DNA of 24,715 nt from a virus. This document shows, piece by piece, positions 1 to 18,903 of this stretch. The DNA is taken from positions 1 to 24,715 of IMG/VR virus record IMGVR_UViG_3300022821_000110; one strand, 5' to 3'. A model generated the notes under the pieces. It searched no databases, was not told the origin of the DNA, and saw only the letters and a program-made list of their open reading frames with translations. Made by a program: the position numbers and the translations under genes. Numbering within the stretch: position 1 is the stretch's first letter; every line of letters starts with the position of its first letter.

Positions 1-804
1 TCACGATGTCACCGCCATGTCGGCGAGCGCCCGGTCGAGCACATCGGTATCGACGTTGGTGGTGATGTGGCCCGTGTGTTGCTGGAATAGGTCAACGGCC
101 CTGTGTGCTGTCGACAGCACGGCGTTGAAGGCAGCGTCGGCGGCAGCGGCGGCGTCGGCGGCGGCGTAGGTGGCGTAGGCGGCAGCGTCGGCGGCGTAGG
201 CGGAGGCGTCGGCGGCGTAGGCGGCAGCGTAGGCGGCAGCGGCGGAGGCGTCGGCGTCGGCGTAGGCGGCGGAGGCGTCGGCGTAGGCGGCAGCGTAGGC
301 GGCGGCAGCGTAGGCGGCCTTGGCGTAGGCGTTGGCGGCGGAGGCGGAGGCGTTGGCGGCGGCGTAGGCGTTGGCGGAGGCGTTGGCGTTGGCGGCGGTC
401 ACCGTTCCGTCGCACCAACCCTCGGCCGCCAAGATCGCAGCCATGACGCGCGGGTCGGTATTGAGGTGGGCAACATCGCGCGCCAATGCCGCAGCCACAC
501 GCACCCAGACCCGGTGCCTGTCTGCGTCTGTGATGTCGAGCGCGTCGCCGGTGCCGACGATGCGGTGCCCCAGGTCGAGCACGAGGAGCGAACACGACGG
601 ACACAGCAGGTCGCCATCGCGATGGGTGCAGATCTTGTCGTTGACTCGTTGCACGATGCGGGCGAGCATCTGGTCGGCGCACGGTGGCATGTCGGTGATG
701 GTGGTGTCTCCGTTCTCCCATGAGATGACGTTCATGGCGCAGCCTTTGCCGCTGCCGGCCTTGTGGCTGCCGACGGCAAGCCGGAGTGGGTGTTCGGCGT
801 TCAT
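1..804 (-). CDS. Alanine-rich phage protein, copy A of a tandem duplication
   Basis: 267-residue protein, identical in sequence to the copy at 881..1684. Residues 1-130 form a normal-complexity domain with a GSGKGCAMN stretch (17-25) and a possible zinc knuckle (C59, H61, C68, C71). Residues 136-226 are almost only Ala with Tyr, Asp, Ser and Asn, suggesting a long helix. Residues 227-267 return to normal complexity. The segment around CAMNVISWENGDTTITDMP resembles proteins I recall from many actinobacteriophages, which also carry Ala-rich segments; their function is unknown. The start is supported by AAGGGAGACAC upstream of the ATG. The stop codon is the first three bases of the window, so nothing further downstream can be seen. 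Confident as a gene, no function assigned. Confidence 0.8.
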   Translation of the reverse strand: MNAEHPLRLAVGSHKAGSGKGCAMNVISWENGDTTITDMPPCADQMLARIVQRVNDKICTHRDGDLLCPSCSLLVLDLGHRIVGTGDALDITDADRHRVWVRVAAALARDVAHLNTDPRVMAAILAAEGWCDGTVTAANANASANAYAAANASASAANAYAKAAYAAAAYAAAYADASAAYADADASAAAAYAAAYAADASAYAADAAAYATYAAADAAAAADAAFNAVLSTAHRAVDLFQQHTGHITTNVDTDVLDRALADMAVTS

Positions 805-843
805 GTGGTGTGTCTCCCTTGGTTGGATGTGTTCGGTGGTTGT

Positions 844-877
844 TCAGAAGTTCGGGCGTAGGCGTTCGAGCAGTTGT
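844..877 (-). pseudogene. Duplicated C-terminal fragment of the gene at 1724..1912
   Basis: Between the two Ala-rich genes lies a second copy of the last eleven codons (QLLERLRPNF plus stop) of the upstream gene at 1724..1912. It has one substitution, A at 849 where the intact copy has G at 1729, changing the final Leu to Phe. No start codon belongs to it. It is the remnant that marks the duplication joint. Confidence 0.8.
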
Positions 878-880
878 GAT

Positions 881-1684
881 TCACGATGTCACCGCCATGT
901 CGGCGAGCGCCCGGTCGAGCACATCGGTATCGACGTTGGTGGTGATGTGGCCCGTGTGTTGCTGGAATAGGTCAACGGCCCTGTGTGCTGTCGACAGCAC
1001 GGCGTTGAAGGCAGCGTCGGCGGCAGCGGCGGCGTCGGCGGCGGCGTAGGTGGCGTAGGCGGCAGCGTCGGCGGCGTAGGCGGAGGCGTCGGCGGCGTAG
1101 GCGGCAGCGTAGGCGGCAGCGGCGGAGGCGTCGGCGTCGGCGTAGGCGGCGGAGGCGTCGGCGTAGGCGGCAGCGTAGGCGGCGGCAGCGTAGGCGGCCT
1201 TGGCGTAGGCGTTGGCGGCGGAGGCGGAGGCGTTGGCGGCGGCGTAGGCGTTGGCGGAGGCGTTGGCGTTGGCGGCGGTCACCGTTCCGTCGCACCAACC
1301 CTCGGCCGCCAAGATCGCAGCCATGACGCGCGGGTCGGTATTGAGGTGGGCAACATCGCGCGCCAATGCCGCAGCCACACGCACCCAGACCCGGTGCCTG
1401 TCTGCGTCTGTGATGTCGAGCGCGTCGCCGGTGCCGACGATGCGGTGCCCCAGGTCGAGCACGAGGAGCGAACACGACGGACACAGCAGGTCGCCATCGC
1501 GATGGGTGCAGATCTTGTCGTTGACTCGTTGCACGATGCGGGCGAGCATCTGGTCGGCGCACGGTGGCATGTCGGTGATGGTGGTGTCTCCGTTCTCCCA
1601 TGAGATGACGTTCATGGCGCAGCCTTTGCCGCTGCCGGCCTTGTGGCTGCCGACGGCAAGCCGGAGTGGGTGTTCGGCGTTCAT
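881..1684 (-). CDS. Alanine-rich phage protein, copy B of a tandem duplication
   Basis: Same 267-residue protein as copy A: possible CxH/CxxC zinc knuckle at residues 59-71, Ala/Tyr/Asp/Ser-rich segment at 136-226, and a C-terminal tail with a predicted helix (STAHRAVDLFQQH). This is probably the ancestral position because its upstream neighbour (1724..1912) is intact. The 40-base gap to that neighbour carries the binding site AAGGGAGACAC. The Ala-rich part is built from GCC/GCA/TAC/GAC codons arranged as imperfect repeats, which leaves all six frames nearly stop-free and creates long spurious ORFs. The role is unknown; a structural or scaffold-like helix is only a guess. Confidence 0.85.
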   Translation of the reverse strand: MNAEHPLRLAVGSHKAGSGKGCAMNVISWENGDTTITDMPPCADQMLARIVQRVNDKICTHRDGDLLCPSCSLLVLDLGHRIVGTGDALDITDADRHRVWVRVAAALARDVAHLNTDPRVMAAILAAEGWCDGTVTAANANASANAYAAANASASAANAYAKAAYAAAAYAAAYADASAAYADADASAAAAYAAAYAADASAYAADAAAYATYAAADAAAAADAAFNAVLSTAHRAVDLFQQHTGHITTNVDTDVLDRALADMAVTS

Positions 1685-1723
1685 GTGGTGTGTCTCCCTT
1701 GGTTGGATGTGTTCGGTGGTTGT

Positions 1724-1912
1724 TCAGAGGTTCGGGCGTAGGCGTTCGAGCAGTTGTTCGAGTTCGCTGGCCTCGCCGGTGTCGGGGGCTGCCTCGGCGA
1801 TCGTCTGGCAGCGCATCGGGTTGTCTGTGAGCGATCGGCCGCGGATGGCGACGAGCAGGTCGTGCTCGTCTTTGGTGATGGCGGTGACGATGTTGGTGGT
1901 CGGTGACCTCAC
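1724..1912 (-). CDS. Small phage protein of unknown function
   Basis: 62 residues from a GTG at 1912 that overlaps the stop of the upstream 27-codon gene by four bases (GTGA). I prefer this start to the ATG at 2077, because the longer reading would run through two upstream genes in a composition-biased frame. The C-terminal half is acidic and helical (EASELEQLLERLRPNL), suggesting a short coiled coil. No family recognised. Last gene of the overlapping chain before the 40-base leader of the Ala-rich gene. Confidence 0.65.
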   Translation of the reverse strand: MRSPTTNIVTAITKDEHDLLVAIRGRSLTDNPMRCQTIAEAAPDTGEASELEQLLERLRPNL

Positions 1913-2156: not shown

Positions 2157-2326
2157 GGCGTCACCTTCGGCGGATTCGTGAGGGCGTCGAGCAGCCCGCC
2201 GACGGTGGCCGCATGTCCCTGCCACCGGTAGTAGTTGCGGGCGATGGTGTTGACTGCGCGTCGCTCGGCGTGCGACAGTTGGTCGACATCGGCGGCGAAG
2301 AACTGGGCGTACATCTCGTGCGTCAC
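2153..2326 (-). CDS. Small helical phage protein of unknown function
   Basis: 57 residues starting VTHEMYAQFFAADVDQL from a GTG that overlaps the preceding stop (GTGA). The sequence is helical and mixed-charge (HAERRAVNTIARNYYRW), ending in NPPKVTP. Its stop overlaps the GTG of the zinc-finger-like gene. No family recognised. An alternative ATG four codons in is possible. Confidence 0.6.
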   Translation of the reverse strand: MTHEMYAQFFAADVDQLSHAERRAVNTIARNYYRWQGHAATVGGLLDALTNPPKVTP

Positions 2327-2424
2327 GGCTGCACCATTTCGGGCCAGGGTGCGTGGACTGCACGATGGTGGCGGCGGGCGACCACCGGATGGGCGATGAT
2401 GTAGCGGATCAGGCGCCAGGTCAT
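2323..2424 (-). CDS. 33-residue basic micropeptide
   Basis: Short gene MTWRLIRYIIAHPVVARR continuing with several His and Arg residues and ending in EMVQP. The ATG overlaps the stop of the two-helix membrane protein (ATGA) and the stop overlaps the next GTG (GTGA). This exact fit is the main evidence. The N-terminal part is amphipathic and basic and could associate with membrane or nucleic acid. A longer reading from 2862 is a composition shadow of the upstream gene. Function unknown. Confidence 0.5.
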   Translation of the reverse strand: MTWRLIRYIIAHPVVARRHHRAVHAPWPEMVQP

Positions 2425-2594
2425 GGCTCGGTCCCGTCGATGATGGCGACAGCGATGTTGACGGCGCCGACTGTGCCGACGGCGAGGAGTGTCCACCAGG
2501 CGGCGACGGTCCAACCGTTCAGGATGGCCGGTAGTTGCACGGCGATGACTGCGGCGGTCACGATGGCGACGAAGCCGAGGGTTGCGCGGATCAT
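2421..2594 (-). CDS. Two-helix small membrane protein
   Basis: 57 residues beginning MIRATLGFVAIVTAAVIAV. Two hydrophobic segments, about residues 4-25 and 31-53, are separated by a short NGW turn, giving a hairpin membrane topology. The ATG overlaps the stop of the upstream gene (ATGA). The longer in-frame ATG at 2780 adds an Arg/His-rich leader antisense to the real neighbour and is rejected. Function unknown. It lies far from the recognised lysis cassette, so a holin role is not favoured. Confidence 0.65.
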   Translation of the reverse strand: MIRATLGFVAIVTAAVIAVQLPAILNGWTVAAWWTLLAVGTVGAVNIAVAIIDGTEP

Positions 2595-2935
2595 GTGGTG
2601 ACCCGTTCGATGCGGTCGACACCGTCGGCGTCGGTCCAGATGTGGACGGTGGCGATGCGACCAGGCGTGGCGGTAGCTTCGGCTCTGTCTCTCGCGCCGT
2701 GGAGGAGGACGACTGCTTTGTTCGGGTAGAAGTTGGCCCACCTTTCGGGCAGTGGTGTCGGTGTTTCCACCTTGATCCACTCGCCGATGCTGAGGAACAT
2801 CGTGTGCTCATTGTCGTTCTCGTCGTAGCCGACAAACACAGAGCGACCGACGTAATCGACATCGATGTACTTCGGGTTATCCCACCCCGCTCGTCGCACG
2901 CGGTCGCCCTTGACCGGGACGTAGGGGGCGGTCAT
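2591..2935 (-). CDS. Hypothetical phage protein, beta-rich
   Basis: 114 residues from MTAPYVPVKGDRVRRAG. The first 60 residues look like a small beta barrel: a PVKGDRVRR opening, then alternating hydrophobic strands through VDYVGRSVFVGY and an NEHTMFLSIGEWIKV end, as in SH3-like or Tudor-like phage proteins. The C-terminal half contains NKAVVLLHGARDR and ends in WTDADGVDRIERVTT. The ATG overlaps the preceding stop by four bases. No specific family assigned. Confidence 0.7.
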   Translation of the reverse strand: MTAPYVPVKGDRVRRAGWDNPKYIDVDYVGRSVFVGYDENDNEHTMFLSIGEWIKVETPTPLPERWANFYPNKAVVLLHGARDRAEATATPGRIATVHIWTDADGVDRIERVTT

Positions 2936-4002
2936 GCTGACACCGTCCAGATGTCGCGCAGGATCTCTTTGCCTGTGATCCGCAGGGCGTGGGCGTGCTG
3001 GTGTCCGGCTGACCACGGCGAGCCGACCTGGGCTGGCTTGCCAGACGGGCCACATCGAACGCACTCGACGCTATGGACCTTCTCGGCGGTGGCGAGGCGT
3101 GACACCTCGTACACCCGCCGATACGGCCAGCAACAGTCGTCGGGGATCTGGTGGCAGGCGAGCAGTTCGAGTGTCGAGCGTCCCGGTTCCTTGACGGCGT
3201 TCTCGGCCATCAGGTGCAGCAGCATCTTAAGCGTCGGTTTGCCCTGTGCGGCGAGGTCGTCGGCGGTCATGCCCTTCCACTTGCGGCCGGGTGCGCCGTG
3301 TCCGCAGAACTGCCAGAGCTGGCCGACGGTGCGATCATACGGCGGATCGACGACGAGCACCCGGTTGGTGCCGGTGCCTTCCCAGTGGTGCGGGGTGGCG
3401 TGTACGGGGTGTCCGAGGTGGCCGAGGAGTCGGCCGAGCATGTCGATACCGATGCCGGTCGACGCCTTCTCCCAATTCTTGATCGGCTCGGGTGCCATCT
3501 TGCGGAACGTGCGCCGCAACATCAGGCGACAGTTGTGCTCGGTGGTGTGGAGTGCGGCGATGTGTGCGGCGAAGACGTCTGGGTCTGCACCGCCACGCTC
3601 GGCGCGGTTGACGTTGGCGATGCGTGATTTCTGTGCGTCGTCGAACATTTCGGCCCACACTCGAAGTTCCAGCCACCCACCCGGCGACCGCACCTTGGGT
3701 GTCGATTCTTGGTTGGCCGGTGGGTGGCTAGGGGAATCGCCGACAGCGACGACGCCCTTGCGATGGGTGTCGTATGTCGCCTGGTCGTCGCTGTCGGTCG
3801 AGGGGTCCGACCCGACGCCCAACCGATGGGTTTCGTTCGTCGAATGGTCGGGTCGGAGATCGTCCCCACCGACGACGCTAGCCCCGTGGGTTTCGTTCGT
3901 CGGATGGTCGTCGGTGGGGTGAAGGGGCGCAGCCAGCGCGACGAGTATGGGTGTCGTAACAGCTCTGGCTGGCTGCGCGATTGGGGTGAGCAGATCGGTC
4001 AT
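2932..4002 (-). CDS. Phage protein with IS110-transposase-like C-terminal region
   Basis: 356 residues. The N-terminal 100 residues are Pro/Asp/Thr-rich and contain three spaced motifs (TNETH 35-39, TNETH 55-59, TYDTH 76-80), probably disordered. Residues 110-180 are helical. Residues 181-197 (STGIGIDMLGRLLGHLG) resemble the helix-hairpin-helix 'GIG' of the IS116/IS110/IS902 domain. Residues 225-271 (LWQFCGHG, GRKWKGM, QGKPTLKMLLHLMAENA) resemble the following 'YxG ... GN..LR..L..AA' part. Residues 283-317 carry several cysteines, including CVRC. I see no paired RuvC-like N-terminal domain or terminal repeats, so this is a phage-resident relative rather than a complete insertion sequence. ATGA overlaps link it to both neighbours. 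Confidence 0.7.
   Translation of the reverse strand: MTDLLTPIAQPARAVTTPILVALAAPLHPTDDHPTNETHGASVVGGDDLRPDHSTNETHRLGVGSDPSTDSDDQATYDTHRKGVVAVGDSPSHPPANQESTPKVRSPGGWLELRVWAEMFDDAQKSRIANVNRAERGGADPDVFAAHIAALHTTEHNCRLMLRRTFRKMAPEPIKNWEKASTGIGIDMLGRLLGHLGHPVHATPHHWEGTGTNRVLVVDPPYDRTVGQLWQFCGHGAPGRKWKGMTADDLAAQGKPTLKMLLHLMAENAVKEPGRSTLELLACHQIPDDCCWPYRRVYEVSRLATAEKVHSVECVRCGPSGKPAQVGSPWSAGHQHAHALRITGKEILRDIWTVSA
3763..3900 (-). repeat. Three TxxTH-motif repeats within the 356-residue protein
   Basis: Three units spaced about 20 residues apart carry TNETH, TNETH and TYDTH, each followed by a Gly-Val or Val-Val stretch and an Asp-rich spacer. The first two cores share an almost identical 15-base DNA word. 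This suggests internal duplication of a short linear motif in a disordered segment. Confidence 0.65.
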
Positions 4003-4484
4003 GCCGACACCAGCTCGAGGGCGGCGAGGTTGTCGGCCCCGGTGTCACGGAGGTGCTTGGCGACGGTGATGCATTCGTCCATCGTCTTGGTGATGCCTGC
4101 GACCTGCGCCCCGAGGAACACTGCACGGGCTTCCCATTGGGCTGCAGTGGCGTCACCCTTGTCGACGTACCCGTGATCCATGCCGCAGAACATGCGGTCG
4201 GCGAGGAACACGGTAACGCCGTCGATGTGACACACCCGACACGGAGCATCGATGGCTGGCGTAGCGACCATGGTGTCGGGTGTGTCGAACTGGTCGTCGT
4301 CATCAACGCCACGCTCACGGCTGCGGACGACATTGCGAGCCGAACGGCGACACTCGTCGCGAACGACTTGGTAGAACATCTTCCGCCACTTCTGCGGGAC
4401 GCCGGCAGCGGCGAACACTGCTGCGGCGGTGACATCGGGGTCCGGATCTAAGTGATCGGCGATCAGTTCGGCAAGCGTTTTCAT
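3999..4484 (-). CDS. Hypothetical phage protein with possible zinc site
   Basis: 161 residues from MKTLAELIADHLDPDPD. AAGGGAGACACC just upstream supports this start; an ATG eleven codons earlier (4517) would overlap the HTH gene's stop by four bases and is the alternative. Residues 1-60 are helical (FAAAGVPQKWRKMFYQVV, DECRRSARNVVRSRE). The middle holds C-x2-C and C-x3-H (CRVC, CGMDH), a plausible zinc site. The rest is helical (TMDECITVAKHLRD). The N-terminal part resembles hypothetical proteins of actinobacteriophages that sit beside regulators; function unknown. Confidence 0.75.
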   Translation of the reverse strand: MKTLAELIADHLDPDPDVTAAAVFAAAGVPQKWRKMFYQVVRDECRRSARNVVRSRERGVDDDDQFDTPDTMVATPAIDAPCRVCHIDGVTVFLADRMFCGMDHGYVDKGDATAAQWEARAVFLGAQVAGITKTMDECITVAKHLRDTGADNLAALELVSA

Positions 4485-4513
4485 GGTGTCTCCCTTGGTT
4501 GTGTGATCGATCG

Positions 4514-4696
4514 TCATGCCGCTGCCCTTTGCGTGGCGAGGTCGATGACGACGGCACGTTCGTACAGGTAGGCGCCGGTCGCTCCAGGCATCTTCTGAAC
4601 GGGGTCCAACATGCCCGTCTTCGTGAGGTGCTGCACGTTACGTGTGGACGTCTTGAGTATTTCGGCGGCTGCTGCCGCTCCGATCAGGTCGCTCAT
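4514..4696 (-). CDS. Small HTH DNA-binding protein (MerR/excisionase-like)
   Basis: 60 residues. The stretch LIGAAAAAEILKTSTRNVQ, then LTKTGMLDPVQKMP and a wing-like YLYERAVV, fits the winged-helix layout of MerR and excisionase-like proteins: a helix-turn-helix reading a promoter, then a short beta wing. It is the first leftward gene from the divergent control region and is preceded by a good promoter only 8 bases upstream. It could therefore repress or regulate both promoters (inference). An excisionase role is possible, but no integrase is present here. Confidence 0.8.
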   Translation of the reverse strand: MSDLIGAAAAAEILKTSTRNVQHLTKTGMLDPVQKMPGATGAYLYERAVVIDLATQRAAA

Positions 4697-4704
4697 GGAT
4701 TGCC

Positions 4705-4733
4705 ACTATGACGCAATTACGCAACGCTGTCAA
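4705..4733 (-). promoter_or_regulatory. Leftward sigma70-type promoter, probably leaderless
   Basis: On the minus strand TTGACA (4733-4728), a 17-base spacer and CATAGT (4710-4705) form a near-consensus promoter. Only eight bases separate the -10 element from the ATG of the HTH gene. Transcription would start at or within a base or two of that ATG, and no Shine-Dalgarno sequence is present. Confidence 0.75.
4711..4724. promoter_or_regulatory. Operator-like direct repeat inside promoter spacer
   Basis: TTGCGTAATTGCGT (minus strand) is two TTGCGT words separated by AA, filling most of the -35/-10 spacer of the leftward promoter. A protein bound there would block RNA polymerase. A second repeat, GAATC-4 bases-GAATC around a TCGCGA palindrome, lies at 4766-4779 just upstream of the opposite promoter. 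Binding by the adjacent HTH protein is inference. Confidence 0.4.
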
Positions 4734-4781
4734 GGGGCGTGTTCGATATTTCTCGTGGGCTGAAAGAATCTCGCGAATCTG

Positions 4782-4810
4782 TTGACACTAGCTAACGATG
4801 TGTGTATGGT
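4782..4810 (+). promoter_or_regulatory. Rightward sigma70-type promoter, probably leaderless
   Basis: TTGACA (4782-4787), a spacer of exactly 17 bases and TATGGT (4805-4810). The ATG at 4818 lies seven bases past the -10 element, where transcription normally begins, so the message would have no leader. It drives the four-gene rightward cassette. Confidence 0.8.
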
Positions 4811-4817
4811 AATGGAC

Positions 4818-4970
4818 ATGACCTACACCGAACTCCACAACTTCCTAACCAACCGCCCGAGCGCTTCGGCCATGCGCCAGGCACTCCGGCAGGAGGGTGT
4901 CAACTACGGCTCCCTCACCAAGCCGGGCCTGGAGGGCCTCATCCTTGACCTCATGGCGGCACGGAAGTGA
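4818..4970 (+). CDS. Small protein opening the rightward cassette
   Basis: 50 residues starting MTYTELHNFLTNRPSAS. In-frame starts further upstream (TTG 4782, ATG 4806, ATG 4812) lie inside the promoter or before the expected transcription start, so 4818 is preferred with leaderless translation. The segment SLTKPGLEGLILDLMAA resembles the second helix region of SAP-like DNA-binding motifs, but the match is weak. Its stop overlaps the GTG of the next gene. Function unknown. The strong promoter suggests early or constitutive expression. Confidence 0.7.
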   Translation: MTYTELHNFLTNRPSASAMRQALRQEGVNYGSLTKPGLEGLILDLMAARK

Positions 4971-5143
4971 CCGCCGGTCAGGCTCACACCCTGCACTTCA
5001 CATTCGCCGATGCGGCCAGGGTCGCCGCCATCTCCTCCAAGGCGAGCGGCGAGCGGTGGGCGGTCACCGCCCGATGTGCCTTCACCTCTGGGTACGGGCG
5101 ACCCACCTACGCCACTCGCCGCACCTACTCGGTGTACTTGTGA
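4967..5143 (+). CDS. Small hypothetical protein
   Basis: 58 residues from a GTG that overlaps the preceding stop (GTGA). It starts VTAGQAHTLHFTFADAARV and runs through helix-like AAISSKASGERWAVTARC to a Tyr/Arg/Thr-rich end (TYATRRTYSVYL). The reading frame is closed by TGA overlapping the next GTG. No family recognised. The gene-on-gene overlaps on both sides are the main support. Confidence 0.6.
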   Translation: MTAGQAHTLHFTFADAARVAAISSKASGERWAVTARCAFTSGYGRPTYATRRTYSVYL

Positions 5144-5319
5144 GCGGTTCCGCCGAGTACGCCCGCCGCTACCGTGACAAGGTGCGCGGCGGGCCACCAC
5201 GCCAGCTCACGCCGTGCCCGTCGAGGGCTGCCGCTGCCCGCCATCGCCGCCACGGTGAGACGGTGTGCGACGGTTGCGCCGAAGCTGAGCGTGCCTACTT
5301 TCGGTCATGGCGGTCGTGA
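5140..5319 (+). CDS. Small Cys/His protein, zinc-ribbon-like
   Basis: 59 residues from a GTG overlapping the previous stop (GTGA): VSGSAEYARRYRDKVRGG, then a segment with C at about residue 26, AARHRRHGE, and VCDGCAEAERAYFRSWR. The layout C...HRRHGExxCxxC followed by a Tyr/Arg-rich helix occurs in many small actinobacteriophage proteins thought to bind zinc and nucleic acid; the function is not known. The long in-frame extension back to 4897 crosses the first two genes and is rejected. Confidence 0.7.
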   Translation: MSGSAEYARRYRDKVRGGPPRQLTPCPSRAAAARHRRHGETVCDGCAEAERAYFRSWRS

Positions 5320-5492
5320 GTAGTTCGCGTGTGTGCTGTGTTACTCATGGCGGTCAGGCGAGGGTCATTGACCTTGTCGATGACCTGTTTGACCACAGGT
5401 GCGACAAGGCGCTACTGCGTGACATCTGGCCGGACGACTGGCCCGAAGTCTCGGGCAAACCATGCGCGTATGAACGTCGGTTGACGGCCTGA
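5307..5492 (+). CDS. Small hypothetical protein closing the rightward cassette
   Basis: 61 residues from ATG 5307, overlapping the previous gene by 13 bases. A GTG at 5316 would give the four-base GTGA overlap seen elsewhere and is an equally good start. It contains CC and HRC pairs (VCCVTHGG, FDHRC) and an acidic, Trp-rich middle (LLRDIWPDDWPEVSG). No family recognised. A strong hairpin begins ten bases after the stop. Confidence 0.6.
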   Translation: MAVVSSSRVCCVTHGGQARVIDLVDDLFDHRCDKALLRDIWPDDWPEVSGKPCAYERRLTA

Positions 5493-13355: not shown

Positions 13356-15811
13356 CGCATGCCTGCTCTCAGTTGGGCCACCTGTGCGGCCTCGTGTTCG
13401 GCAATCATCGCCGTGAACGGGCGACCCTCGATGATCAACGTGATCGGACCGGCCCCCGAACTCATGCCAGTGTTCTGCGACGCCGGGATCACCCGTTCGC
13501 CGGCTTCGAGGATGGCGAGCATCTCGGACCCTCGCCGTCCGGGCACCCGGTCAATGCCCTCATGGAAGCGCTGGATGTCCGGGGTGCCGAACGAGTTCCC
13601 GCCGATCGTCTGACCGAACGCCGAAATACTCGGGAGCGTGAACTCCAGACCGTTCCACTTGTCGATAATCCAGTTCAGCGCCGAGCGGAACGCATCCTTG
13701 AACCCGTCGAACAGGCCCGACGCAGCCGACGAGATGCGACCCGGCAGACCTGTGACGAACCCGACAACATCATCAATGCGGTTCGACACCCAATCCTTCG
13801 CAGTCGTCATCGACGTGCGGATCTGGTCGAACATCGAATATGCCGCACCGAAGATGCGACCGGCGACACCGGTCACGAAACCGACGATGTCGCCGACAGC
13901 GGTGCCGACCGTGGTGGCGACAGTCGAGATCGTCGACCCGATCACCTGGAGCACAGGGATCACCTTGTCGTTGATGAAGTTCCACATACCTGTGAGCGCC
14001 GGGATCACCACGTTCATCACGACGTCTCTGAGGAACCCGAAGTAGGTGATGACGGCGGTGATGTACGTCTCGACCAGCACCTTCAAAATCGGGAGCACCT
14101 TGTCCTGGAAGAAACTCCACATCGACTGGAGCGCCGGAATCACCACGTTCATCACAACATCCTTGAGGAACCCGAAGTAGGTGATGACGGCCTTGATGTA
14201 CGTCTCGACCAGCACCTTCAAAATCGGGAGCACCTTGTCCTGAATGAACTTCCAGACCACAGTGAACGCGTCGGCGACGGCGGCGAGGATCGGCGGCACG
14301 TTGGTCTTCATCCAGCCGAACACATCCTGCAAGATCGGCCACAACGTGTCAGTCAGGAACCGGCCGGTTGCATCGATCGCTTCACGGAACCACTCGACAT
14401 TCTGGTACGCCCAACCAATCGCACCGGCAGCAGCAGCCACAGCGACACCGACAGCGATGAATGGTGCAGCAGCCGCCAACGTCGCCACCGCGGCCGCAGC
14501 AGCCGACACACCCCACGCCACGAACCCGGCCGTGATCGCCACCAGGACACCGACGAGAGCGTTGCGGTTGTCGTTGAAGAAGTTGTAGATCCCCTTCGCG
14601 CCGTCGACGATGCGATCGAACGCTGCCGTCACCTTCGGCACGACGTTCGCGACGAGCCAATCGAACACATCGCCGATCGCCTTGCGGATCTTCGGCCAGT
14701 TTTTCTCGAACAGATCCCGGACCTTGGCGACGACGGGCGGCAGCTTGTCCCGGAACCATCCGATGAGCTGCTCGACCTTCGGGCCAAGGGTGTCCATCGC
14801 GTCACCGACGCCGTTGAATACCTTCATCGCCAACGGTTGCAGCCCGACGAGGACCCTGTTCTTGAACAGCAGCCACTTCTCGGAGAACGAGGCGGTTTCG
14901 GCAGCAGCACCGTTGATCGTGTCCTCACCGTTCTGGATGGCGGCGAGCATGTCATCGATGGCGAACTTGCCGCCGGCGATCGCGTCGGCCATGTCCGGCC
15001 CGGCGCGTTGGCCGAACAACTCGATCGCCAACCCGGTCGCCTCAGTGCCCGGACCCATAGCGGTGATCTCGTCAACGATCCGGGAGAACGTCTCAGGGAC
15101 GTCCTCGCCAGCCTTGGCGAGCTTGCCGACACCGGCCTTGAGTCCGGCGATCACGGTGTCTGTGTTCACACCGGTCTTATTGAACTGGGCGAGCAACGCA
15201 GCCGACTCGTCGAGGTTGAACCCCAAGTTTCGCAGCGGAGCGCCGGCTGTAACGATCGACTGCGACAGCTCATCGATGCCGATGCCGGACGCCTGAGACG
15301 CCCGATACAGCTTGTCGAGCGTCGCAGCCTGATCATCGACCGACACCCCCCAGTCACCGAACGTGCGGGTCAGGTTGTCGACGTTCGATGCGACGTCGGT
15401 GCCGGTGATGCGAGACAGGTTGATGAACTGGCCGGCGAGATCCTCGAGCGGCTTGCCGGTCAACCCCAGACGGGTATTCAGGTCCGCGATGGCCGATCCG
15501 GCATCCTCGAACGATGCGGGCACCGTCGATAGGACGTTATTGAACGAGTCCTGCAACCCGAGCAGAGCGTCACCGGTCGCGCCGGTGCCGACACGGATCT
15601 TGTCGAACTGCTCATCGAACGAGCTGCCCAACTTGAACAGGCCCACAGCGGCGCCGACAGCAGCGGCACCCACGGCGGCGGCGGCTGCGAGCCCGAGCTT
15701 CCCGATCTTGCCGGACCACGCGCCAACCTGCGATTCGGAAGCCTTCAGCGCCTTCGAGAGATCACGGTTGTCACCGAGGATCTTGACGTCTATCGTCGAC
15801 TTCGATGCCAT
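13352..15811 (-). CDS. Tape measure protein
   Basis: 819 residues. It sets tail length and occupies the tail lumen; by the usual rule of about 0.15 nm per residue it would predict a tail near 120 nm. Visible parts: an N-terminal coiled domain (DVKILGDNRDLSKALKAS), an Ala-rich stretch, the phage tail tape measure core (about 65-330), hydrophobic segments near 420-460, two 45-residue repeats (about 516-605) and a Gly-rich end with a helical tail. Position right after the chaperone pair is canonical. Start with GAGAGGGGGACG upstream. Confidence 0.92.
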   Translation of the reverse strand: MASKSTIDVKILGDNRDLSKALKASESQVGAWSGKIGKLGLAAAAAVGAAAVGAAVGLFKLGSSFDEQFDKIRVGTGATGDALLGLQDSFNNVLSTVPASFEDAGSAIADLNTRLGLTGKPLEDLAGQFINLSRITGTDVASNVDNLTRTFGDWGVSVDDQAATLDKLYRASQASGIGIDELSQSIVTAGAPLRNLGFNLDESAALLAQFNKTGVNTDTVIAGLKAGVGKLAKAGEDVPETFSRIVDEITAMGPGTEATGLAIELFGQRAGPDMADAIAGGKFAIDDMLAAIQNGEDTINGAAAETASFSEKWLLFKNRVLVGLQPLAMKVFNGVGDAMDTLGPKVEQLIGWFRDKLPPVVAKVRDLFEKNWPKIRKAIGDVFDWLVANVVPKVTAAFDRIVDGAKGIYNFFNDNRNALVGVLVAITAGFVAWGVSAAAAAVATLAAAAPFIAVGVAVAAAAGAIGWAYQNVEWFREAIDATGRFLTDTLWPILQDVFGWMKTNVPPILAAVADAFTVVWKFIQDKVLPILKVLVETYIKAVITYFGFLKDVVMNVVIPALQSMWSFFQDKVLPILKVLVETYITAVITYFGFLRDVVMNVVIPALTGMWNFINDKVIPVLQVIGSTISTVATTVGTAVGDIVGFVTGVAGRIFGAAYSMFDQIRTSMTTAKDWVSNRIDDVVGFVTGLPGRISSAASGLFDGFKDAFRSALNWIIDKWNGLEFTLPSISAFGQTIGGNSFGTPDIQRFHEGIDRVPGRRGSEMLAILEAGERVIPASQNTGMSSGAGPITLIIEGRPFTAMIAEHEAAQVAQLRAGMR
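13996..14265 (-). repeat. 135-bp repeat, two copies, in the tape measure gene
   Basis: Units 13996-14130 and 14131-14265 are nearly identical at DNA level, with an exact offset of 135 bases. A diverged partial copy continues to the left. Each codes for 45 residues built around DKVLPILKVLVETYI and FGFLKDVVMNVVIPAL. Confidence 0.85.
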
Positions 15812-16402: not shown

Positions 16403-16783
16403 TCAATCGAGGTCGTACTTCTTGATGAGTTCGCCGACACGCTTTTCGTACACGTCGATCACCTCTCCACGCCTATCGTCGAGGGCGTCGTACAGAAACG
16501 GCTGCGGGGCGATGTTGCGCTCCGGCCAGCCGAAGTGGATCGGACCGGCGTACGGGACGCTGGCACGCCCTGAGCGGACGACACCCTGGCGGGCCTGACC
16601 CGTTGAACGGGTCGACCCGGCCAGAGCACCAGAACGACGGGGCACCAACTGCACAGCACGCTGCTCGACGACCTTCGCCGACTCGGCGTGCGCCGCCTTG
16701 AGATCAGCACTGCCGTCGTCGAACTGACGTAGCGCCTTGCGGAGCTCGTCAGCACCGTTGACCGTGAGCGACGGCTTCGTCAC
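16403..16783 (-). CDS. HK97 gp10-like tail completion protein
   Basis: 126 residues from a GTG overlapping the preceding stop (GTGA). The layout matches the HK97 gp10 family: helical start (GADELRKALRQFDDGSAD, KVVEQRAVQLVPRRSGALA), then strand-like VRSGRASVPYAGPIHFGWP and the end APQPFLYDALDDRR. Such proteins help complete the head-tail joint or tail end. Here it sits after the major tail protein candidate, where it normally precedes it. Confidence 0.85.
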   Translation of the reverse strand: MTKPSLTVNGADELRKALRQFDDGSADLKAAHAESAKVVEQRAVQLVPRRSGALAGSTRSTGQARQGVVRSGRASVPYAGPIHFGWPERNIAPQPFLYDALDDRRGEVIDVYEKRVGELIKKYDLD

Positions 16784-17148
16784 GTGACGGCGGTGACCGG
16801 CTCCGCTTCGGTCATCACCGAGATGTCGATGACCATCCGATCACCGCGAGTGGTCGACGGCATGAACGGGATCGACGGCATCCGAATCGAGAACGTCGCT
16901 GACGGGTTCGTAGCGGCCACGGTGGCGTCTTCGGGCTTCAACACGACCGCGACGATCGTGTCGGCGAGTGCCGACAGCACGTTCCACGACTCAGCAGCGC
17001 CGTAGCCCAGCTCGATCTGTGCGGCGAACGTCCACTCCTGCTCACAGAAGTTGATGTAATCGCCCGGCTCCAAAGAGACCGAACGCGCCTTGCACTTGTA
17101 CTCGACGCTGTTGATGAGGATGGACGGGGCATAGAGACGCTTGGCCAT
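16780..17148 (-). CDS. Probable major tail protein
   Basis: 122 residues from MAKRLYAPSILINSVEYKC. Beta-rich with an INFCEQEWTFAAQIELGYG stretch, one helix (ESWNVLSALAD) and strand-like FSIRMPSIPFMPSTTRGD. This order of strands, one helix and two final strands is typical for tail tube proteins. A perfect GGAGG is upstream. No other gene between capsid and chaperones fits better, but the assignment is by fold impression and place. Confidence 0.65.
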   Translation of the reverse strand: MAKRLYAPSILINSVEYKCKARSVSLEPGDYINFCEQEWTFAAQIELGYGAAESWNVLSALADTIVAVVLKPEDATVAATNPSATFSIRMPSIPFMPSTTRGDRMVIDISVMTEAEPVTAVT

Positions 17149-18118: not shown

Positions 18119-18328
18119 TCAGCTCTTGCGTATGGTGCGCTTGACGGACTTGTCAGCCTCGGGCTCGGCGATTGCCTTATCCTCGACCTTGTCGGCCTGC
18201 TTACGCTTCGGCGCCGAGTAGCCGTCAGGGATCTCGTCGGCCTCACCGCACAGCAACGTCGCCGCGGACGGATCGCCGTCCTCGACAACGTTGCCAGCAA
18301 CATCAAGCCAGAGGCGACGACCGGTCAT
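18119..18328 (-). CDS. Small hypothetical protein
   Basis: 69 residues from MTGRRLWLDVAGNVVEDGD. The N-terminal half resembles a short beta structure (LWLDVAGNVVED then ATLLCGEADEIP); the C-terminal half is highly charged with Lys and Asp/Glu and probably disordered. The start overlaps the decoration-like gene (ATGA). No family recognised. Confidence 0.6.
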   Translation of the reverse strand: MTGRRLWLDVAGNVVEDGDPSAATLLCGEADEIPDGYSAPKRKQADKVEDKAIAEPEADKSVKRTIRKS

Positions 18329-18903
18329 GACTGGTAGTAGTCCACGATCACTTCGGTGCCGTTGCTGGCACTGTTGAGATCGACCGTGTTCGACGACAGC
18401 GCCGAAGCGGACACGGCCACAGTTGGGGCGGTGCCTTCCTTGGCGCCTGCCCGGTATGCGGCGATCACCGTGTTGCGTGCCAGGTGCGCGCCGAGTCCGA
18501 GCTTGTCGGACGTACCGATCGACGTTGTAGCACCGGTGCCGTCATGCGGTGGGATGACCACCGACGTTACGGTCTTGAACGCCTTGGACCCGGTCACACT
18601 GCCGGCGGTGTTGACGGTGAACACCGGCAGCACTTCGGAGATCGCTGCGCCGCCAGCGTCGGTGCCATTGACCGTGACCGAGATCGCTTTGATGTCGGCG
18701 GCGGTGCCGCCAGCGGTTGCCGTGAGAGCCCTCGTTACTGCTGGGCTCGTGATGCCGGTGGTGACGGTCACCTCGACAGCAGTGTCTGTGACTGCTGCGA
18801 GCACCGCGGCGACCGCGGGGGCGGCTGGGCTGCCGAGTGTCTGGGAGATGATGCGTGTCCCGGTGCCGTCGTTGACGGCAGCCGATGGTTCGATGATTGC
18901 CAT
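18325..18903 (-). CDS. Putative head decoration or accessory virion protein
   Basis: 192 residues from MAIIEPSAAVNDGTGTRI. Rich in Thr, Ala, Val and Gly with many beta-type segments. The TSVVIPPHDGTGATTSIGTS pattern followed by DKLGLGAHLA resembles proteins located immediately after the capsid gene in other phages, with a decoration or fibre-like role in the virion. It carries AAGGAGTCACATC before its ATG, the same binding site as the capsid gene. A tail tube role is a less likely alternative. Confidence 0.6.
   Translation of the reverse strand: MAIIEPSAAVNDGTGTRIISQTLGSPAAPAVAAVLAAVTDTAVEVTVTTGITSPAVTRALTATAGGTAADIKAISVTVNGTDAGGAAISEVLPVFTVNTAGSVTGSKAFKTVTSVVIPPHDGTGATTSIGTSDKLGLGAHLARNTVIAAYRAGAKEGTAPTVAVSASALSSNTVDLNSASNGTEVIVDYYQS

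Follow-up and report, generated by a model that had tools for sequence, protein, structure and literature searches.

Divergent sigma-A-type promoters with predicted leaderless starts in a putative control region of an uncultured, probably actinobacterial, tailed phage

The intergenic region at positions 4,697 to 4,817 of the window (the whole 24,715-nucleotide stretch analysed here, an uncultured virus contig recorded in IMG/VR as IMGVR_UViG_3300022821_000110) is probably the divergent control region of an actinobacterial tailed phage, with two sigma-A-type promoters and predicted leaderless starts for both operons. The first-pass annotation had described promoters of the form TTGACA-17-CATAGT and TTGACA-17-TATGGT that face apart, with an ATG 8 and 7 nt past the respective -10 elements. 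Both promoters were read directly from the sequence in that form and the coordinates gave the same distances (Table 1). The bases between the -10 and the ATG are GGCAATCC on the minus side and AATGGAC on the plus side. With C in place of T as its first base, CATAGT does not strictly conform to TANNNT. Two additional ATGs in the plus frame, at 4806 and 4812, fall inside or just past the -10 and thus upstream of any transcript from the plus promoter.

Table 1. Features of the divergent region and its flanking genes, in window coordinates.
Feature	Coordinates	Strand	Remarks
phrog_4285 protein, 356 aa	2932..4002	-	Related to early-region proteins Thor gp72 and Spooky gp50 (Mycobacterium and Gordonia phages)
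Unknown-family protein, 172 aa	3999..4517	-	ATG 4517 overlaps end of Xis-like gene
Xis/excise-type MerR-like helix-turn-helix protein, 60 aa	4514..4696	-	Motif KMPG-TGAYLYER; predicted leaderless first operon gene
Divergent intergenic region	4697..4817	.	121 bp; 48% G+C vs. about 64% phage-wide
-10 CATAGT, minus promoter	4710-4705	-	17-nt spacer; 8 nt before ATG 4696
-35 TTGACA, minus promoter	4733-4728	-	Read directly from sequence
-35 TTGACA, plus promoter	4782-4787	+	Read directly from sequence
-10 TATGGT, plus promoter	4805-4810	+	17-nt spacer; 7 nt before ATG 4818
Orphan protein, 50 aa, predicted helical	4818..4970	+	Predicted leaderless first operon gene
58-aa ORF	4967..5143	+	Overlaps preceding stop codon
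59-aa ORF	5140..5319	+	Overlaps preceding stop; weak match to C-terminal part of phage WhiB-like families
61-aa ORF	5307..5492	+	Overlaps preceding ORF
G+C-rich stem-loop	5501..5538	.	Between plus operon and convergent minus genes; z -1.7 only

Six sites on the two strands of the 24.7-kb window matched the promoter at 9 or more of 12 positions, and the only sites with at least 10 matches were the two divergent promoters; no further site with at least 9 matches was found near the pair. Dinucleotide-shuffled windows (n = 200) contained on average 0.295 sites with at least 10 matches, and 10/12 sites with an ATG 5-9 nt downstream occurred at 0.035 per window in the same shuffles. When the local 135 bp were shuffled 20,000 times, a 10/12 site was present on both strands in 0.03% of the shuffles.

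Neither ATG 4696 nor ATG 4818 is preceded by a Shine-Dalgarno match of at least 4 nt, in agreement with the first-pass annotation, while a clear match is found at several of the major phage genes (AAGGAGG at the protease gene and at 16780-17148; AAGGAG at the major capsid gene and at 18325-18903). The base before the A of the ATG is C at both starts. A pyrimidine-purine CA initiator at the ATG favours a transcription start at the A according to general start-selection rules, and the A of the ATG is likewise mostly preceded by C in related phages. A purine also occurs 5 nt past the -10 on the minus side (an A) and 6 nt past it on the plus side.

A TANNNT -10 element is centred 7-12 bp before 73% of the primary transcription starts of M. 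tuberculosis (PMC3898074), and leaderless starts are marked by a TA-type -10 signal about 12 bp upstream (PMC3160421). Both starts in the window resemble TA-led leaderless genes: they lack a Shine-Dalgarno, and the -10 begins 13 bp before the ATG on the plus side and 14 bp before it on the minus side. Actinobacterial hosts commonly and efficiently translate leaderless mRNAs (PMC4633059, PMC3898074, PMC3160421); in mycobacteria nearly a quarter of transcripts are leaderless (PMC4633059). The likeliest reading of these sequence features is that the two are leaderless early or control promoters of a switch region, and that, as promoters of the host-sigma-A type, they would fire apart across the 121-bp A+T-rich spacer. 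Transcription most likely begins with the A of the ATG on both sides, because the -10s lie 7-8 nt before the ATG and there is no ribosome-binding site. Both messages are predicted to begin at the start codon, and ribosomes would read the 5'-terminal AUG directly, as is normal for about one fifth to one quarter of actinobacterial genes or transcripts. Translation of genes further down would use overlapping stop and start codons or their own Shine-Dalgarno sites.

The minus promoter would drive an operon in which a helix-turn-helix (HTH) gene in the Xis or Cro position is followed by relatives of actinophage early-region genes, with expression presumably in the early lytic phase. ATG 4696 is the start of the Xis-like gene: its ORF offers no earlier in-frame start, and the HTH core of the product extends from about residue 4 onwards. 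At 32-48% identity, the Xis-like protein resembles ten actinophage proteins, several of them annotated as excise or excisionase, and a PG-xGAYLF motif is shared. It was also matched by the excisionase family phrog_4691 (E 0.004) and, below the curated cut-offs, by Pfam HTH_17 and MerR_1. A MerR-like Xis HTH gene is the first gene of its operon, as in actinophage control regions. Relatives of the Xis-like protein were found in phages of Mycobacterium, Gordonia, Arthrobacter and Curtobacterium, and those of the 356-aa protein in phages of Mycobacterium, Gordonia, Arthrobacter and Rhodococcus. In the N-terminal region of the 356-aa protein, a NETHRLGVG-like segment of about 20 residues recurs; it is encoded by three 38-nt direct repeats (window 3750-3910) spaced 60-63 nt. 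A Pfam MHC_I match at window 2591-3064 (E 0.0003) was below the cut-off and is almost certainly spurious.

The genes for terminase, portal, capsid, tape measure and exonuclease all lie on the minus strand. Relatives of the capsid protein were found mostly in Actinomycetota genomes: those 51-60% identical were from Saccharopolyspora, Nocardioides, Streptomyces, Pilimelia, Allokutzneria and an Acidimicrobiia MAG, and two more were in Chloroflexi MAGs. Judged from these sequences, the host is most likely an actinobacterium. The first-pass annotation had proposed leaderless starts at a control point of a phage with such a host, and this proposal agrees with the indirect evidence, with 5' ends exactly at the start codons standing as a prediction. 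Early expression, which it had also suggested, fits the Xis-like gene and may apply, more weakly, to the orphan plus operon. Two other repeats were observed in the contig. An 880-bp stretch is duplicated in tandem (window 1-1757), with a single mismatch, at 849, among the 877 aligned bases. The duplication contains the gene of an alanine-rich repeat protein (267 aa; phrog_3416, unknown function) twice, with identical products, and is either a recent event or an artefact of assembly where the contig ends. The tape measure gene contains a 135-nt direct repeat (window 13911-14180, 72% alike) that corresponds to a duplicated 45-residue segment.

Downstream of the plus promoter, as many as four small, overlapping ORFs would form a short operon, convergent with the operon of structural and exonuclease genes. 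The coding signal of 4818-4970 was strong (log-odds 14.2 in its own frame, every other frame negative). A search for homologues of the 50-aa product found none, so its start and function are judged from coding statistics alone. Of the three ORFs that follow, the last two had weak coding signals. Single-sequence models of the 60-aa (pLDDT 72) and 50-aa (pLDDT 76) proteins gave no PDB match of value. The stem-loop beyond the operon is without a T-run and is a possible two-way terminator.

No repressor-like family match, as would mark a divergent immunity repressor, was found in the four plus ORFs, and neither an integrase nor an attP beside a repressor was recognised among the plus operon genes examined, in a contig that may be incomplete. 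It is a serious possibility, if somewhat short of an even chance, that the plus side is a small host-interaction or accessory operon that replaces the integrase-repressor cassette, and that the promoter design is a local convenience and not a switch. Consistent with such an operon, the four ORFs hold no recognisable regulator, save the weak WhiB-like match, and a tyrosine integrase occupies the plus-operon position in a relative found by its exonuclease (L006, 7896-9200). However, the position and orientation of the operon are those of the repressor side in annotated actinophage relatives with a divergent partner gene, and the operon may encode a small repressor that has diverged beyond recognition. 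This alternative is a rival on function only and is compatible with leaderless starts. Beyond the tyrosine integrase gene of L006 lies a tRNA-like stretch, a possible attachment site.

As a control region, the intergenic region may be regulated by the Xis-like protein or by an unseen repressor; an operator search of its 121 bp gave no convincing palindrome. Scans of IMG/VR with the 356-aa, Xis-like and 172-aa proteins, aimed at conservation of the promoters, found no relatives. None of 22 exonuclease-related records matched the Xis-like or the 356-aa protein, and their downstream layouts differ from that of the window.

Recurrence of the geometry was surveyed in 15 other actinophages that carry this Xis, some of which are related to one another (Jebeks and Purky), giving 28 starts of Xis and opposing genes. 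The first in-frame ATG was taken in place of annotated GTG or TTG starts, and the Xis starts of GRU3 and McGonagall were picked by the analyst, that of GRU3 with the promoter already in view. A promoter-like pair with a score of at least 6 ended 5-9 nt before the ATG at 18 of the 28 divergent starts. Pairs with a score of at least 8 were found at this distance at nine starts. The other distance bins for the same starts held 0-6 and 0-1 pairs, respectively, and the background among 986 ATGs in the same loci was 4.9% (score at least 6) and 1.4% (score at least 8). Gusanita had the geometry on both arms (scores 10 and 8), and it was absent in Corgi, in Idaho and on the xis side of GMA5 and Barebow. 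In most of the Xis phages inspected, Xis heads an operon that is transcribed away from the repressor gene, and most annotated relatives have structural genes, integrase and repressor leftward and Xis and early genes rightward. Among the 89 distinct divergent TTGACA pairs listed, at least four contigs (L060, L088, L117 and L122) had an ATG 6-8 nt past both -10s, counted with ORFs of at least 48 aa required on both arms; shifted control positions gave 0-2. These four are unrelated phages, mostly of low G+C. In L060, a 146-kb viral contig, several TTGACA-17-TANNNT-6-ATG starts occur within 3 kb (2309-5363), one of them a divergent pair.

Many of the relatives have 6 nt between the -10 and the ATG, and the slightly larger 7 and 8 nt in the window make short leaders possible. 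Real promoters with leaders of 1-5 nt (starting, for example, at A 4700 on the minus strand and A 4816 on the plus strand), which would lack a Shine-Dalgarno and not be strictly leaderless, would also suit the purines 5 nt (minus) and 6 nt (plus) past the -10, but we regard them as unlikely, given that the CA initiator falls exactly on both ATGs and that the relatives mostly keep the C as well. Ordinary leadered mRNAs from promoters further upstream, with the -35/-10 pairs coincidental or serving other conditions, are highly improbable: some mycobacteriophage promoters are unlike SigA, and none was readily identified at the Adephagia switch (PMC11373665), but the window has no further match of at least 9/12 nearby and no Shine-Dalgarno for a leadered start, and both sites would arise locally by chance with a probability of about 0.0003.

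The rarity of the arrangement that was implied in the first-pass annotation was not borne out, as similar architecture occurs in other actinophages and has been published (PMC4351075, PMC4488713). Cluster O mycobacteriophages (the Corndog group) have divergent promoters, PL1 and PR2, that are both predicted to be leaderless, and their intergenic regions are generally A+T-rich (PMC4351075). Like PL1/PR2, the window has two SigA-like promoters, an A+T-rich intergenic region and a predicted +1 at the start codon, and in both cases the leaderless starts are predicted ones. The window differs in phage group and genes, and its pair lies beside an Xis-like gene, whereas PL1/PR2 lie near the left genome end. 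In the Yersinia telomere phage PY54, the cI and cro mRNAs were both shown by RACE to be leaderless (PMC4488713). The two PY54 genes, which belong to a lysogeny switch, are likewise divergent, and the cro -10, CATAAT, is close to the CATAGT of the window; on rescanning, it was found 6 nt before the ATG with a score of 10, and the cI side was weaker. Unlike the window, PY54 has an enterobacterial host, RACE-proven starts, a CI repressor as partner and a strong cI promoter, P2, at the cro end. The -10s of the window lie about 6-8 nt before the start codons, as in divergent leaderless pairs of the Cluster O and PY54 type. Since leaderless starts were predicted in Cluster O and mapped by RACE in PY54, the window pair belongs to a known kind of arrangement, of which it is a new and well-formed example.

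In phiGD34-2, Gusanita, Emperor, Nyceirae, Rahul and Fishburnevirus, as in the window, a MerR-like Xis is first in the early operon and lacks a Shine-Dalgarno; a promoter-like pair lies 6-9 nt before its ATG and, in several, also before the opposing gene. These phages have an annotated repressor, usually with an integrase, opposite Xis, whereas the window has an orphan operon. Phage and prophage regulators are also translated from leaderless mRNA in lambda (cI from PRM) and E. coli O157:H7 (paaR2) (PMC8630535), although in these systems this has been described for one arm only, that of the repressor.

By itself, the window locus adds one clean example. If the 18 of 28 starts found in the survey hold in a larger set, leaderless starts at phage switch genes would be common in actinophages and not curiosities, and the choice of start codon would become easier for annotators. 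More tentatively, initiation without a leader on both arms may be a general, selected feature of lysis-lysogeny control in actinophages with a small MerR-like Xis, although we doubt that it reaches so far; the first regulators would then be products of leaderless initiation, and the switch might sense shifts in leaderless translation, for example during starvation. A survey result of this kind would suggest that phage decisions could couple to leaderless translation in the host.
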